In this document: positions 21,115-27,248 of the stretch, piece by piece
How positions within the stretch are numbered: the stretch's first letter is position 1
How the letters are laid out: the number at the start of each line of letters is the position of its first letter
NCBI GenBank assembly: GCA_026417735.1
Contig: JAOACR010000007.1
Location: 186,001 to 250,000, forward strand
Length of the DNA stretch: 64,000 nucleotides
Direction of reading: 5' to 3'
Origin: Kiritimatiellia bacterium
GTDB lineage: Bacteria > Verrucomicrobiota > Kiritimatiellia > PWTM01
Notes under the pieces: generated by a model
What the model was told of the DNA's origin: nothing
Database searches by the model: none
The model's input: only the letters and a program-made list of their open reading frames with translations
Program-made: the position numbers and the translations under genes

Positions 21115-21144
21115 TTGCGGGGAGGCGCTGGGAAGCAGTACCGT
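21115..21144 (+). promoter_or_regulatory. Promoter of EF-hand gene
   Basis: TTGCGG (21115-21120), 18-base spacer, TACCGT (21139-21144). Start expected near 21151, giving a leader of about 15 bases with GGGAGG and AAGG before the ATG at 21166. Confidence 0.45.
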
Positions 21145-21165
21145 AACGGCGGGAGGGTCGCAAGG

Positions 21166-21501
21166 ATGAAGCGGGTGAGCCTCGCGTTCGTGCTGGCCGC
21201 GCTGGTGGGCGTGGCGAGGGCGCAGCCGACGATGTCGCCACCGGCGGAACCTTCTCCACCGGCTCAGGGGCGGCCGGGCGGTCCATTGACATTCGCACAG
21301 CTGGATCTGAACGGGGACGGGGGCGTCGTCTGGGATGAGTTCCTTCGTGCACACGCCCGTGCAGCAGGACGGCCGGAGGACAAGGCCGCCGCGATTCCTG
21401 CGAAGGAAATGACCCGATTGCGGCGGATCTTCCGCGAGGCGGACAACGATCGGAGCGGCATTCTGACGCAGAAAGAGTGGGACGAGTACCCGCGAAAATA
21501 G
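21166..21501 (+). CDS. Secreted EF-hand calcium-binding protein
   Basis: 111 residues. Signal peptide (MKRVSLAFVLAALVGVARAQP), Pro-rich linker, then two EF-hand loops: DLNGDGGVVWDEF and DNDRSGILTQKEW, both with Asp at positions 1, 3/5 and Glu/Asp at 12 as calcium ligands. The protein is exported, so it likely binds calcium in the periplasm or outside. Small secreted EF-hand proteins are common in Planctomycetes and Verrucomicrobia; no partner is known. Own promoter; lemA follows after 73 bases. Confidence 0.85.
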   Translation: MKRVSLAFVLAALVGVARAQPTMSPPAEPSPPAQGRPGGPLTFAQLDLNGDGGVVWDEFLRAHARAAGRPEDKAAAIPAKEMTRLRRIFREADNDRSGILTQKEWDEYPRK

Positions 21502-21574
21502 GCGGGCGCGCACCCGGTGGGATGGCCGGTCGGCCGTCCGGCGTGCTTCGCAAAAAAAGGACGGAGCCAACGTG

Positions 21575-22159
21575 ATGACGGGATGGATCTTGCTCGGCGT
21601 GGTGGTGGTGCTGGTGTTCGCGGCGGTTGGCATCTACAACCGGCTTGTCGCGCTGCGCAACCGGTACCGGAACGCGTTCTCGCAGATCGAGGTTCAGCTG
21701 AAGCGCCGCTACGACCTGATCCCCAATCTCGTGGAGAGCGTGAAGGGTTATCTCGCACACGAGCGGCAGACGCTGGAGGCGGTGATCGCGGCGCGCAATG
21801 CGGCGTGGACGGCGGGCCAGGCTGCCGCCGCACATCCCGGCGAGGCGGGCGCGATGCGCGGTCTGAGCGGTGCGGAGACGGCGCTCACCGGCGCATTGGG
21901 TCGATTGATGGTGCTGGTGGAACAGTACCCCAACCTGAAGGCGGACCAGCGGATGGCGCAGCTGATGGAGGAACTGACCTCCACCGAGAACAAGGTCGCA
22001 TTTGCGCGCCAGGCGTACAACGACGCGGTGATGGCCTACAACACCGCCCGCGAGACGTTCCCGGCGGTGCTGCTGGCGGGTGCGCTCGGATTTCAGCCGG
22101 CCGCGCTCTTTGAGGTCGCGGCGCCGGCGGAACGCGAGGCGCCGAAGGTACAGTTCTGA
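21575..22159 (+). CDS. lemA: LemA family protein
   Basis: 194 residues. One N-terminal membrane helix (TGWILLGVVVVLVFAAVGIYN), then a helical domain with the family's core 'RNRYRNAFSQIEVQLKRRYDLIPNLVE' split over the helix start, and 'NDAVMAYNTARETFP' and 'FQPAALFE' near the end. ATG preferred over the GTG three bases earlier because GGAG is 8 bases upstream. LemA proteins are often encoded just before an M48 (HtpX-like) protease, as here; their biochemical role is unsettled. Confidence 0.92.
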   Translation: MTGWILLGVVVVLVFAAVGIYNRLVALRNRYRNAFSQIEVQLKRRYDLIPNLVESVKGYLAHERQTLEAVIAARNAAWTAGQAAAAHPGEAGAMRGLSGAETALTGALGRLMVLVEQYPNLKADQRMAQLMEELTSTENKVAFARQAYNDAVMAYNTARETFPAVLLAGALGFQPAALFEVAAPAEREAPKVQF

Positions 22160-22183
22160 TTCGGGCGTCGCTGCGCCCGCACG

Positions 22184-24064
22184 ATGACCCGGCCCGCTTC
22201 GATGGATTTCTTCGGTCTGCAAGAGCAGGCGCGCCGTCGCACCGCGCTGCTGCTGGTGCTCTATGTGCTGGCGGTGCTGGGGATGATCGTTGCGGTGTAC
22301 GGGGTGGTTCGGGCGGTGCTCGTGGAGGTCCGGGGGACGTTCGAGATCGCGCGGTGGTGGCAGCCGGGCCTGTTTCTGGCGGTGGCCGGAGGGGTGCTGG
22401 CGATCGTTGCGGCTGGCAGCGCGGCGAAATCGGCCGAGCTGGCGACGACGGGCGGTGCCGGCGTCGCGGAGCGCTTGGGAGGGCGTCGGCTGGTGCCCAA
22501 CACCGGCGACCTCGCCGAGCGGCGGCTGTTGAACGTGGTGGAGGAGATGGCGCTGGCCGCGGGGTTGCCGGTGCCGCGGGTGTATGTGCTGGACCAAGAA
22601 CGGGCCATCAATGCGTTTGCGGCAGGCTTCAGCCCGCGCGACGCGGTGATCGGCGTCACGCGCGGCGCGCTCGACGCGCTGACGCGGGATGAGCTGCAAG
22701 GAGTGATTGGGCACGAGTTCAGCCACATTCTGTACGGCGACATGCGGCTGAACCTGAGGCTGATCGGTGTGCTGCACGGCATTCTGCTGCTGTCGCTGCT
22801 CGGCCAGGGGATGCTGCGCGCGCTGCGCCAGATACGGTGGACGAGCGGCCGACGCCGAGGTCAGGGGGGCGGTGCGGCGCTGTTGATGATGCTTGTGCTC
22901 GGCGTGACACTCTGGGTGGTGGGGTGGATCGGCGCCGCGCTCGCGTCCCTGATCCGGGCAGCGGTCGCCCGGCAGCGCGAGTTCCTCGCCGACGCCGCCT
23001 CTGCACAGTTCACCCGGAACCCCTCCGGATTGGCGGGCGCCCTGAAGAAAATCGCCGGTTGGAGTCACGGTGGCCGGATCACCGTGCCTTCCGCGCCGGA
23101 GGCGGCGCATCTGTTTTTTGTGGACGCGCTGGGGTTTTGTCTTGACCGATTGCTCGCCAGTCATCCCCCGCTCGCCGAGCGCATTCGCCGGCTCGAGCCG
23201 GGGGGCAGGGCGGGGAGGGCCGCGCAAACATGGCCGGAATGGCCGGCGACGGCGATGGACAGCGGTGCGGCCGCGCTGGTCGCCGCCGCGGGTACGGTGA
23301 CGCCGGCCGCGCTCGATTGGGCGCGGGCGTTGCGGCAGGAGATTCCGCCGGCGCTTCTGGAGGCGGCGCACGAGCCCGAGGGCGCGCGCGCCATCGTGTA
23401 CGGGTTGCTTCTGCGTGAGGGCGCAGAGAGCCGCGCTGTCATCGTAGATGTGCCGGCAATCGAGCGCCTCCAACGGCTTGCGCCGCTGCTCGCGGAGCTG
23501 CGCCCGGCAGCGCGGCTGCCGCTGATCGAGATGGCGATGCCCGCGCTCCGGCAGATGAGCGCGGGGGAATACAGACAATTCCGCGAGCGGATGCTCCAAC
23601 TCATCCAGGCTGACGAGCGGGTCAATCTTTTCGAGTACGCGCTGATCCGGATGATCGAGCGGCACCTGGATCCCGTGTTCGGGCGGATGGACACCGCGCC
23701 GCAGCGGCATCGCCGTTTGGATGCGCTCGAGGCGGAGGCCAAAACGGTGCTGGCCGCGCTGGCACGCTGGGGCGCGCGTGACGAGGAGACGATCGTTCGC
23801 GCCTGGCACCGTGCGCTGCAGCGGCTGGGACGGCCAGCAGAGGGTAGGCCGCCGGAGGTGTCACTGGACGACGTTCACCACGCGCTGCAGCGCCTGCGGA
23901 CCACCGCTCCCTCGGTGCGCCGCGTGCTGCTCGATGCCTGTGCGGTGAGTGTCGCGGAGGATGAGCGGCTCGATCCGATCGAGGCCGACCTGCTGCGCGC
24001 GATCGCCGACGCGCTCGATTGTCCGCTGCCGCCCTTGAGCGTCGTTGGAGTGGCGTCGGATTGA
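22184..24064 (+). CDS. M48 family zinc metalloprotease (HtpX-like) with C-terminal extension
   Basis: 626 residues, about twice HtpX. N-terminal membrane helices at about 25-50 and 60-85; catalytic zinc motif HEFSH near residue 176 (ligands both His) with a downstream Glu in REFLADAAS near 266; two further helices between them. The C-terminal 250 residues are soluble and helical, with 'LIQADERVNLFEYALIRMI' resembling TerB-like / DUF533 helical domains. M48 enzymes degrade misfolded membrane proteins. The ATG at 22202 (MDFFGLQEQARRRT) matches the usual family N-terminus and may be the real start. Follows lemA by 24 bases, the common pairing. Confidence 0.9.
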   Translation: MTRPASMDFFGLQEQARRRTALLLVLYVLAVLGMIVAVYGVVRAVLVEVRGTFEIARWWQPGLFLAVAGGVLAIVAAGSAAKSAELATTGGAGVAERLGGRRLVPNTGDLAERRLLNVVEEMALAAGLPVPRVYVLDQERAINAFAAGFSPRDAVIGVTRGALDALTRDELQGVIGHEFSHILYGDMRLNLRLIGVLHGILLLSLLGQGMLRALRQIRWTSGRRRGQGGGAALLMMLVLGVTLWVVGWIGAALASLIRAAVARQREFLADAASAQFTRNPSGLAGALKKIAGWSHGGRITVPSAPEAAHLFFVDALGFCLDRLLASHPPLAERIRRLEPGGRAGRAAQTWPEWPATAMDSGAAALVAAAGTVTPAALDWARALRQEIPPALLEAAHEPEGARAIVYGLLLREGAESRAVIVDVPAIERLQRLAPLLAELRPAARLPLIEMAMPALRQMSAGEYRQFRERMLQLIQADERVNLFEYALIRMIERHLDPVFGRMDTAPQRHRRLDALEAEAKTVLAALARWGARDEETIVRAWHRALQRLGRPAEGRPPEVSLDDVHHALQRLRTTAPSVRRVLLDACAVSVAEDERLDPIEADLLRAIADALDCPLPPLSVVGVASD

Positions 24065-24096: not shown

Positions 24097-25101
24097 GTGA
24101 ACATCGTGGTCTTTGACGCGGCGCTGTGGAATCCCGAACCGTTGCCGTGGACGGAGTTGCAGGCGATGGGGGAGGTGCGGCCGCTGGGCACGCTCTCGAA
24201 GGACGAGATCGGTCGGCTCGCGGCGGATGCGGAGGCGGTTTTCACTTGGCGGACGGTGCTGAACCGGGAGGCGATTCGCGCGATGCCGCGCCTGCGGTAC
24301 ATCGGGGTGGTGGATCCGGATGGCTCGGCGCGGGTGAACTTGGACGCCGCGACGAAACGGGGGATCACGGTGTGTCGGGTGCCGCTGCCGACGGCGGTGT
24401 CCGTTGCGGAACATGTGTTTGCGGTCATGCTGGAACTGGCGCGCGGCGTCGGTCGCCACATGCATGCGGTGTATGGCGGCGCATGGACGAGATCGGGGCG
24501 GCCGTGTTGGTGGCAGTTCCCGTTGCAGCGACTGGCGGGGCGCACGGTGGGTCTGATTGGCGCGACGGTGGCGGCGGGAGAAGTTGTACGGCGCGCGCGG
24601 GCGTTCGACATGCGTGTGCTCGTGGTGCCGGTGCCGGGCGGTGAGTCGCCCGTGCCGGCGGAGGCGGAAGCGACGGATCTGGGCCGGGTGTTGGGGGAAA
24701 GCGATGTGGTCGTCGTGCTGGCGCCGTCGATGCCGGAAACTGCGGGGCTACTGAATGCGGCGCGGCTCGCCGGGATGAAACCTGGGTCGTGGCTGATCCA
24801 CGTGGGTGGGCCGGGGGTGGTGGACGAGGCCGCGCTCGCGGAGGCGTTGCGCCAGGGAGTGGCGCCGGCCGTTGCCGTGCTGGACCGTCTCGGCTTGGAG
24901 CCGCCACCGCCGGACCACCCGCTGTTGCGTGTGCGGAACTGTCGGATCACGCCGCATCAGGCCTGGGCGGCGGTGGCGGCTCGCGCGGAGTTCATTGCAG
25001 CGGCGGCCCGGAACCTTCGGGCGTGGTTGGAGGGGCATCCCGAAGGGTTGCTCGCCGCGGGCGATCGGATCGGACCTGGAACGCGGGAGTCGGGAGCATG
25101 A
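24097..25101 (+). CDS. D-2-hydroxyacid dehydrogenase-like protein with altered motifs
   Basis: 334 residues from the GTG at 24097, where the fold begins (VNIVVFDAALWNPEPL, as in glycerate dehydrogenases). The chain aligns along its whole length with the D-isomer-specific 2-hydroxyacid dehydrogenase family: 'DSVAQH'-type helix (SVAEHVFAVMLELARGVGRH), 'SDVVVVLAPSMPETAGLLN', 'VVDEAALAEALRQG', LEPPPPDHPLL and ITPHQAW. Two key motifs are lost: the NAD-binding GxGxxG is GATVAAG, and the segment normally NxxRG, which supplies the substrate-binding arginine, reads HVGGPG. The catalytic-type Glu and His remain. Probably not a normal dehydrogenase. The stop overlaps a 19-codon ORF. Confidence 0.75.
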   Translation: MNIVVFDAALWNPEPLPWTELQAMGEVRPLGTLSKDEIGRLAADAEAVFTWRTVLNREAIRAMPRLRYIGVVDPDGSARVNLDAATKRGITVCRVPLPTAVSVAEHVFAVMLELARGVGRHMHAVYGGAWTRSGRPCWWQFPLQRLAGRTVGLIGATVAAGEVVRRARAFDMRVLVVPVPGGESPVPAEAEATDLGRVLGESDVVVVLAPSMPETAGLLNAARLAGMKPGSWLIHVGGPGVVDEAALAEALRQGVAPAVAVLDRLGLEPPPPDHPLLRVRNCRITPHQAWAAVAARAEFIAAAARNLRAWLEGHPEGLLAAGDRIGPGTRESGA

Positions 25102-25157
25102 AGGCGGAGCATCGCCGCCGCAAGGTTCTCAATGGCCGAAAGGTGGTCCGCCCGTGA
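25098..25157 (+). CDS. Possible 19-residue coupled leader peptide
   Basis: ATG at 25098 overlaps the dehydrogenase stop (ATGA), and the TGA at 25155-25157 overlaps the GTG of the symporter gene (GTGA). The 19 residues are very basic (MKAEHRRRKVLNGRKVVRP). Ribosomes could pass from one gene to the next through it. It may equally be chance in a 52-base gap; no homologue can be claimed. Confidence 0.3.
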   Translation: MKAEHRRRKVLNGRKVVRP

Positions 25158-26449
25158 GGTCGCCCGCCTCCACTCGCCGGATCCTGATGGGCATGGCATG
25201 GGGGGCGGCGACCGGTCTGCTGCTCCATGCGGTTCGCGCGCGTTGGCCCGCGATCGCGCCGGCAATGGACCGCCATGTGATCGGGGGTATGTTCGATGCG
25301 GTGGGGAGATTGTTCCTGTCCGCGATCCAACTGCTGGTGGTGCCGCTGGCGTTGGTGTCGCTCTCGGTCGGCATGGCCGGAGCCGGTTCCGTGCGCCGGC
25401 TAGGTCGAATCGGCGCGCGGGTGATGGGATTGTACGTGGGCACCACCGCGGTGGCGGTCAGCCTGGCCCTTCTCCTCGCGCACGTTGTGGGGCCGGGCCG
25501 AGGCGCATCGCGGCCGGCTGCGGTCACGGCCGGCCAGCCGGGCAGTGCACCCTCCGCTTGGGAGATGTTGGGCGGGCTGGTCCCGCCGAACCCCGTTCGC
25601 GCGATGGCGGAGGGGAACATGCTGCAGGTGATCGTGCTTGCGCTGCTCGTGGGCGCGGCGCTGGTGCAGATGGGGACGCGTTCCGGCCGGCTGCGCGAGC
25701 GGCTGGAAGATTGGAACGACCTGCTGCTGGCGATGGTGGGCCTGGTGATGCGTGCGGCGCCGGTCGGCGTGTTCGCGCTGATCGCCCGTGTGCTGGCCGC
25801 CCAAGGGCCGGCGGTCGCCGGTCGGCTGCTTGCCTACATGGGAACGCTGCTCGCCGCGCTGGCGTTGCATGTTGCGATCGTCTACGGGACGTTGATTCGA
25901 GGGCTGGCGAAGCTGCCGTTCGGACTGTTTCTGCGCCGGTTCCGCGAAGCGCTGCTGGTTGCGTTCAGCACGTCCAGCAGCAACGCAACGCTGCCGGTCA
26001 CGCTCGACGTGCTGCAAAACCGCGTGGGCGTGTCGAGATCCATCGCCGCGTTCGCGGTGCCGCTCGGTGCGACGATCAACATGGATGGCACGGCGATCAT
26101 GCAAGGCGTCGCGACGGTGTTCATCGCGCAGGTCTACGGCGTTCCGCTGGGGTGGAACGCGGCGGTGCAGATCGTGGCGGTGGCGACGCTGGCCTCGATC
26201 GGGACGGCCGGCGTCCCCGGTGTCGGTCTCGTGATGCTGGCGATGGTGCTCCGCCAGGTCGGATTGCCGCTGGAGGGAATCGGGTTGGTGCTGGGCGTTG
26301 ACCGGCTGCTGGACATGGCGCGGACCGCAGTGAACGTGCTGGGCGACGGTGTCGTCGCGACGGTGGTCGCGCGGCTCGAAAATGAACTGGATGAATCAGT
26401 GTTGCGAGGTGGGGCTCGTACCGAGCCGCCACCGACGATGGACCGTTGA
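25154..26449 (+). CDS. Dicarboxylate/amino acid:cation symporter (DAACS family)
   Basis: 431 residues from the GTG at 25154, with AAGGTGG about 10 bases upstream. Eight or more membrane helices plus the two re-entrant hairpin motifs of the glutamate-transporter fold: STSSSNATLPVT near residue 273 and GATINMDGTAI near 307, the latter containing the sodium/substrate-binding NMDG. Transports dicarboxylates, glutamate/aspartate or neutral amino acids with sodium or protons across the inner membrane; the exact substrate is not decidable here. Likely co-transcribed with the dehydrogenase-like gene. Confidence 0.92.
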   Translation: MRSPASTRRILMGMAWGAATGLLLHAVRARWPAIAPAMDRHVIGGMFDAVGRLFLSAIQLLVVPLALVSLSVGMAGAGSVRRLGRIGARVMGLYVGTTAVAVSLALLLAHVVGPGRGASRPAAVTAGQPGSAPSAWEMLGGLVPPNPVRAMAEGNMLQVIVLALLVGAALVQMGTRSGRLRERLEDWNDLLLAMVGLVMRAAPVGVFALIARVLAAQGPAVAGRLLAYMGTLLAALALHVAIVYGTLIRGLAKLPFGLFLRRFREALLVAFSTSSSNATLPVTLDVLQNRVGVSRSIAAFAVPLGATINMDGTAIMQGVATVFIAQVYGVPLGWNAAVQIVAVATLASIGTAGVPGVGLVMLAMVLRQVGLPLEGIGLVLGVDRLLDMARTAVNVLGDGVVATVVARLENELDESVLRGGARTEPPPTMDR

Positions 26450-26483: not shown

Positions 26484-27248
26484 ATGAATCCGGCTGTTGT
26501 GCTCGGACTGCTGCTGGGGTTCACATTGACCGCGCGCGCGGCGTCCGCACCGAACGTTTCATTCGATCGCTACCAGGTGATTCTTGATCGCCAGCCGTTC
26601 GGTGTGCCGCTGCAGACCACTGCGACCGAGACCTCGGCGGCACCGGCGCTGGTCGTTGGACCGGGCGGAGAAGCGCTGGGCCTGCGCGCCTGCAGTCTGG
26701 TGATGATCGAAGGGGAGGGGCCGCGCGCGGGGCTTGTCGAGGTGAAGGGCGGCAAAAGTTACATGTTGTCGCCGGGCGAGACGATCGACGGGATCCGGCT
26801 CGTGTCAGTGGACATGAATGAGGAGCAGATTGTGATCCAGCGGGGCACGGAGATGGCGGTGCTGAAGCTGAAAGAAGCCAGTCCGACTGAACGCCGCACC
26901 TCCGTTGCCGGCGGTTCGCTGAGTCGACCCGGGCTCACACGCACGCTGACGATCGGGAACGTGCCGTCCTCGTCCGCCGCGCCGTCGCCCCCGGTGGTGC
27001 CTCCGCCGGCGCCGCCACGACTGCAGGGCGAAGAGCTTCAGCGGCATCTCCAGCAGTACCAGATGGAAGTGATCCGCAAGGGGTTGCCGCCACTGCCGAT
27101 CCCGCTGACGCCGGAGATGGACCGCCAGCTGGTCCAAGAGGGAGTGCTGCCACCGCAGGAACCGGTGGTGATTCAGCAGGGCGGTGCCCAGATCATCATC
27201 GCCCCCCAGCCCGCGGTGCCCGCGGCCAATGCGCCGGTCACTCAGTAG
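26484..27248 (+). CDS. Secreted protein, possibly T2SS GspC-like
   Basis: 254 residues. Signal peptide (MNPAVVLGLLLGFTLTARA), then a domain beginning 'VSFDRYQVILDRQPFG', with a central stretch (LGLRACSLVMIEGEG to 'IVIQRGTEMAVLKL') that resembles the homology region of type II secretion GspC/PilP-like proteins. The C-terminal third is Pro/Gln-rich and low in complexity. No other secretion genes are adjacent, so the GspC link rests on local sequence feel only; otherwise a hypothetical periplasmic protein. Confidence 0.55.
   Translation: MNPAVVLGLLLGFTLTARAASAPNVSFDRYQVILDRQPFGVPLQTTATETSAAPALVVGPGGEALGLRACSLVMIEGEGPRAGLVEVKGGKSYMLSPGETIDGIRLVSVDMNEEQIVIQRGTEMAVLKLKEASPTERRTSVAGGSLSRPGLTRTLTIGNVPSSSAAPSPPVVPPPAPPRLQGEELQRHLQQYQMEVIRKGLPPLPIPLTPEMDRQLVQEGVLPPQEPVVIQQGGAQIIIAPQPAVPAANAPVTQ

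Follow-up and report, generated by a model that had tools for sequence, protein, structure and literature searches.

A putative non-catalytic protein derived from GHRC-type D-2-hydroxyacid dehydrogenases in a genus of Kiritimatiellia

The locus and the family of the encoded protein

The window, the whole stretch of DNA analyzed here, comprises 64,000 nucleotides of a Kiritimatiellia bacterium (assembly GCA_026417735.1, contig JAOACR010000007.1, positions 186,001 to 250,000). At positions 24097-25101 of its forward strand lies an open frame of 334 amino acids, running from a GTG start, 33 bases downstream of the end of an M48 peptidase gene, to a TGA stop. The genes around it are the following:

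21115-21501, + strand: EF-hand protein, upstream of LemA
21572-22159, + strand: LemA, upstream of the M48 peptidase
22184-24064, + strand: M48-family peptidase, upstream neighbor; its order with LemA and the EF-hand gene is kept in one congener only (G001)
24097-25101, + strand: putative pseudoenzyme with a 2-hydroxyacid dehydrogenase (2HADH) fold, 334 aa, GTG start; from Pfam and AlphaFold
25154-26449, + strand: sodium:dicarboxylate symporter (SDF), downstream neighbor; from Pfam; its counterpart in G001 is a pseudogene

The M48 peptidase, which closes the + strand block 21115-24064, has a long C-terminal extension. Between the symporter gene and a histone-deacetylase-like gene, positions 26484-27248 (+) encode a protein of 254 amino acids without a Pfam match.

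Sequence searches against Pfam, NCBIfam and the PDB concur in assigning the window protein to the D-2-hydroxyacid dehydrogenases. Both Pfam domains are matched (2-Hacid_dh_C at 2e-36 and 2-Hacid_dh at 3e-16), and the preliminary description, which had an intact frame following the family from end to end, is borne out. Against the NCBIfam equivalogs, the protein remains far under every cut-off, with a best score of 190 of 448 bits, while its intact sister L007 reaches 322 bits on the same model. Descent from the GHRC lineage is borne out by full-length homology and by the nesting of the protein among intact GHRC-like sequences in a tree, and its best PDB match in both sequence and fold is 5tx7. 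Judged from these alignments, the protein is a GHRC-type D-2-hydroxyacid dehydrogenase by descent, yet it fails several tested defining features of a functional 2HADH. Under automatic annotation, the gene would likely be labeled as glycerate dehydrogenase or 2-hydroxyacid dehydrogenase, an activity that would then be attributed to the organism in error.

Changes at the active site and the cofactor site

Residues are numbered as in the window protein and their roles are taken from PMC6303947, which gives Arg230, Glu259, His277, Gly73, Asn227 and Gly231 as working residues of structure 5v7n and defines the GHRC “Asn-Lys” pocket motif. The comparison set consists of 102 intact GHRC-like relatives. 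Two further species of the genus have an orthologue with altered motifs as well, and residues of this trio are given in the order G000 (window), G001, G002.

24247-24252, + strand: residues 51-52, WR replacing the GHRC Asn-Lys motif; WR/WR/LC in the trio, NK in 100 of the 102 intact relatives
24313-24339, + strand: residues 73-81, the beta4-alpha4 substrate loop, in which the whole trio has one inserted residue, the conserved Gly76 and a new, trio-invariant R79 (24331-24333)
24559-24576, + strand: residues 155-160, GATVAA, a degenerate form of the dinucleotide motif that is GxGxxG in intact relatives
24616-24642, + strand: residues 174-182, cofactor-ribose loop, degenerate here where close intact relatives have HTRTPP
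24799-24813, + strand: residues 235-239, HVGGP replacing N-x-x-R-G; catalytic Arg and two positioning residues gone
24898-24900, + strand: E268, Glu of the catalytic triad, retained in all three
24955-24966, + strand: from H287, the catalytic His (H/H/R across the trio), to W290, a retained Trp of the pocket

Of the dinucleotide motif, only the first glycine is retained. The second has become T157 and the third A160, and the second is T, S or A in the trio versus G in 102/102 intact relatives, which leaves all three proteins without the GxGxxG signature. The cofactor-ribose (TRT) loop, in turn, reads VPVPGG, TSCGVG or HSPDGA. The catalytic Arg238 is G/G/P in the trio versus R in 100 of the intact relatives (H in the other two), and the residues that position it, Asn235 and Gly239, both invariant across the comparison set, are H/H/Q and P/A/Y; the catalytic arginine of a functional GHRC or other 2HADH enzyme is therefore missing together with its positioning residues. 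In the substrate pocket, the Asn-Lys pair is lost while both tryptophans, Trp139 and Trp290, are retained, and the substrate loop has changed from L-ATGYN to VDPDGSA. The window protein also loses Y98, T100 and V264. From the catalytic pair, Glu268 is retained in three of three proteins and His287 in two, an arginine taking its place in G002 (ITPRHGW).

These readings agree with what had first been described for the window protein, namely a GxGxxG motif turned into GATVAAG, an NxxRG segment turned into HVGGPG (N235H, R238G, G239P) and a remaining glutamate and histidine, with the addition that the histidine is lost in a congener. The wording that exactly the cofactor- and substrate-binding residues had been lost was nearly right, but too narrow: the pocket Lys, Asn and Tyr and the ribose loop are gone too, as is the histidine in one species. 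Across the 38 columns that are at least 95% conserved in the intact relatives, the trio deviates at 16 (G000), 18 and 18, versus a median of 0 for intact sequences. The departures at near-invariant columns far exceed chance.

Orthologues and the origin of the loss

The orthologues lie at L108:10588-11598 in G001, the second species of the genus (70% identity), and at L109:1986-2957 in G002, the third (54% identity), and all three frames are intact. No orthologue was found in G003, a 68% complete genome of the same genus, and no more members turned up in 346 genomes of the class, 388 of the phylum or a pattern scan of genome contigs; the clade is known from three sequences of one genus in fragmented assemblies. 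In a maximum-likelihood tree of 115 sequences, the trio forms one clade (support 100/100, stem length 0.75), the nearest neighbors of which, L007 from the same family and L117 from the same class, have intact motifs. The preliminary description had reasoned that a conserved clade with the same changes would speak for a new function, and the tree indeed gives a genus-level clade with the same class of changes, under purifying selection and with normal outgroups. Because the inserted residue is common to the trio, 23 sites are changed in all three (three of them in the ragged C-terminus) and the sister sequences have normal motifs, catalysis appears to have been lost once, in the stem lineage of the genus.

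A search for an intact GHRC paralogue in G000 found none, its other PF02826 matches being LdhA-like (L002), SerA-like (L003) and two more. That the gene is a duplicate left beside a working copy is thereby rejected for G000.

Retained constraint and predicted structure

Between G000 and G001, pN is 0.209 and pS 0.571, giving a dN/dS of about 0.23, which is close to the 0.30 of the neighboring M48 peptidase gene; LemA has 0.06. The near-equal pS in every comparison indicates a saturated dS, which makes the ratios approximate and probably upper bounds. In a neutral simulation with substitutions only, 1.8% of the lineages were still free of stops at 0.5 substitutions per site. As far as substitution patterns can show it, the gene has been under purifying selection after the loss of its catalytic residues. 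This constraint is not uniform. Columns identical in the trio make up 25% of the cofactor half (residues 150-225) versus 50% elsewhere (Fisher p 1e-4), and among 54,014 intact triples with comparable identity, 393 have an equally low ratio (0.7%; the triples overlap and are not independent). Because identity is lower there to a degree seldom matched by intact triples, constraint was relaxed mainly in the cofactor half.

AlphaFold, run with an alignment of 37 sequences, gives a model with a pLDDT of 91.4 and a pTM of 0.87, the best PDB match of which is the apo GHRC structure 5tx7 (TM 0.89, 38% identity). The two-domain 2HADH fold is predicted to be intact in the window protein, from an input alignment of intact relatives that may bias the model toward the family fold.

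Newly fixed residues

Besides its losses, the trio has gained residues of its own. Between 18 and 21 positions are fixed in the three proteins and rare or absent in relatives, including R28, K35, R79, R94, R135, W138, R145 and W232; 4 such sites were counted in the one intact clade of three rows that was comparable and passed the filter. Two stretches complete those listed above:

24376-24378, + strand: R94, trio-invariant; N in 98 of the 102 intact relatives
24499-24531, + strand: residues 135-145 with the trio-specific R135, W138 and R145; D, Y/F and E in intact relatives; the residue after W138, Trp139, is kept

R79 sits in the beta4-alpha4 loop, and alignment places R135 in the alphaB-betaA loop. 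The Arg and Lys residues with which SerA contacts its substrate come from these two loops (PMC6303947). A cleft with kept tryptophans and newly fixed arginines may have an anionic, possibly phosphorylated, metabolite as candidate ligand, which is put forward as a hypothesis since the correspondence with SerA is one of loops and the positions of R79 and R135 are not established as one-for-one homologous to its residues.

Genomic neighborhood

The order of genes in G001 is the same as in the window: EF-hand, LemA, M48, dehydrogenase, symporter. The G001 symporter gene (L108:9406-10541, - strand; 63% identity) is interrupted by a frameshift and two in-frame stops and is either a pseudogene or an assembly error; lying beside a clean 2HADH-fold gene, it provides an internal control for decay. 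The G002 gene is flanked by an FkbM methyltransferase and a histone-deacetylase-like gene, a homologue of which is found 2.2 kb downstream of the gene in the window. The symporter singled out in the preliminary description does adjoin the gene in the window but carries no functional weight; with a pseudogene in G001 and other neighbors in G002, a functional link through conserved context is rejected. Since the context differs in G002, no partner gene can be named from the neighborhood.

For the wider metabolic setting, two families of glycerate kinase, PF02595 and PF05161, were sought and neither was found in G000 or G002, while PF05161 (class II) is present in G001 and also in G006. The absence in G000 and G002 is what would be expected if some members of the genus had given up the ancestral glycerate/hydroxypyruvate role, without proving it; the class II kinase still present in G001 counts on the other side.

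A second altered GHRC lineage

Among relatives in the class, a second altered lineage is formed by L009 (G043:C12:102753-103667, - strand) and L012 (G032:C13:7650-8597, - strand), both of family f12. Their catalytic arginine has become a histidine, the substrate loop is GSDPS and the Asn-Lys motif is LR or VR, while GxGxxG, N235, G239 and the His and Glu are all retained. They depart from 9 and 11 of the 38 near-invariant columns, and both are changed at eight: 51, 52, 75, 76, 94, 98, 238 (R to H) and 299. Seven of these eight are also changed throughout the trio. From the aligned residues, the pocket was altered independently here with the cofactor site retained, which suggests that the pocket and cofactor modules are separately losable.

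The leuC-leuD genes (3-isopropylmalate dehydratase) lie directly upstream of or near GHRC-type dehydrogenases in three relatives from the class (L111:7199-10468, L143:5739-9484, L144:5654-9425), a possible functional link for the intact subfamily. L009, L012 and the intact L008 all lie near such genes, and the ancestral gene may therefore have acted near that pathway.

Interpretation

A function that is non-catalytic or altogether different from the ancestral one is very likely, and the window protein is probably a conserved pseudoenzyme: a non-catalytic protein with the 2HADH fold, kept for the binding of a ligand or partner. Its catalytic residues are lost in a conserved clade that is under purifying selection and has an intact predicted fold. 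The ancestor would have been a GHRC-type glyoxylate/hydroxypyruvate reductase, the sole GHRC copy in the stem lineage of the genus, in which neither the NAD(P)H site nor the site for the 2-keto acid would have survived. The two-domain fold would afterwards have been maintained because a non-redox role was selected for, and the present protein may be a dimeric ligand- or partner-binding protein, acting as a scaffold or sensor in the manner of CtBP or ANGUSTIFOLIA instead of as a catalyst. More tentatively, the history could parallel in bacteria the transition represented by CtBP and ANGUSTIFOLIA: in one genus, the catalytic and cofactor sites of a metabolic reductase would have been dismantled and its cleft, with the fixed arginines, remade to sense an anionic metabolite independently of NAD. 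The first reading of the gene, as a pseudoenzyme or a new activity, is supported by the genus-level clade and by purifying selection, with normal motifs in close outgroups. Neither of the two outcomes named as refuting it was encountered: the closest relatives have altered motifs too, and sequencing error is excluded.

The retained glutamate (3/3) and histidine (2/3) count against the pseudoenzyme and make a redesigned active site conceivable, if unlikely. The Glu-His pair and the new arginines would then act together on an anionic substrate in the old cleft, by acid-base chemistry that is not redox and needs no NAD. The presence of E268 in all three proteins and of H287 in G000 and G001, the two kept pocket tryptophans and the fixed R79, R94, R135 and R145 are in line with this, as are the pocket loops DPDGSARVN and HVGG, in which G000 and G001 hardly differ, unlike in the cofactor loop. 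However, there is no clade-wide catalytic pair, as G002 lacks the histidine and has different pocket loops, and the papers searched gave no precedent for such chemistry on the 2HADH fold.

A gene in decay, its catalysis gone and its frame persisting by chance or weak selection, would account for the long stem branch and for motif residues that vary among the three species, as expected after constraint ends. It is nevertheless improbable in the face of three intact frames, a dN/dS of 0.23, conservation like that of functional neighbors, a confident predicted fold and clade-specific fixed residues, and simple decay is rejected on account of purifying selection and of G001, where the frame is clean although the symporter gene next to it is a pseudogene. 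Equally doubtful is a protein that still reduces 2-keto acids with NAD(P) despite its unusual motifs, R264, R79 or R52 standing in for R238. The family does tolerate change, since SerA of type IIIK is active despite a Lys for His and no Glu (PMC6303947), and L009 and L012 have R replaced by H next to an intact cofactor site. In the trio, however, the second glycine of GxGxxG, the TRT loop and the elements positioning the arginine are gone from all three proteins, and R264 is a glycine in G002. A sequencing error or local frameshift, for which no evidence was found, is excluded, as the two congeners, assembled independently, have changes of the same class and share the inserted residue.

Comparison with known systems

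The window protein and 5tx7, a GHRC of the HprA type from Desulfovibrio vulgaris, are homologous from end to end. The trio has the glutamate, Trp139, Trp290 and the fold in common with the GHRC subfamily, inside which it nests, and is unlike it in the lost NAD(P) motif, catalytic Arg, Asn-Lys pair and TRT loop and in a substrate loop longer by one residue. CtBP1 and CtBP2 have retained NAD binding and a weak dehydrogenase activity. They resemble the window protein in how they may work, as a 2HADH fold used for a regulatory scaffold, and differ from it in that the window protein is without the NAD motif. Altered active-site residues are also found in subfamily X4, where His is replaced by Trp and Glu is missing in about half of the members, and in X13, where Gly73 is lost (PMC6303947). 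Unlike X4, of which structure 1qp8 has a bound cofactor, the trio keeps the glutamate but loses the arginine and the cofactor site.

A parallel by description is plant ANGUSTIFOLIA, a CtBP/BARS homologue with the 2HADH fold that is reported to be without the catalytic residues and to have a non-enzymatic role (PMC6303947; PMC5469197). It is unlike the trio in being eukaryotic, of the CTBP lineage and the product of a separate loss. Enzyme-dead 2HADHs are already known through this protein, and in the papers searched the loss of catalysis is documented mainly for this one eukaryotic case; a search on inactive or pseudoenzyme 2-hydroxyacid dehydrogenases gave nothing relevant and no such bacterial clade, and the GHRC-derived clade is new as far as those papers go. 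With an intact sister known down to the family, it offers a testable bacterial case of the transition from enzyme to non-enzyme of which ANGUSTIFOLIA is the eukaryotic example.
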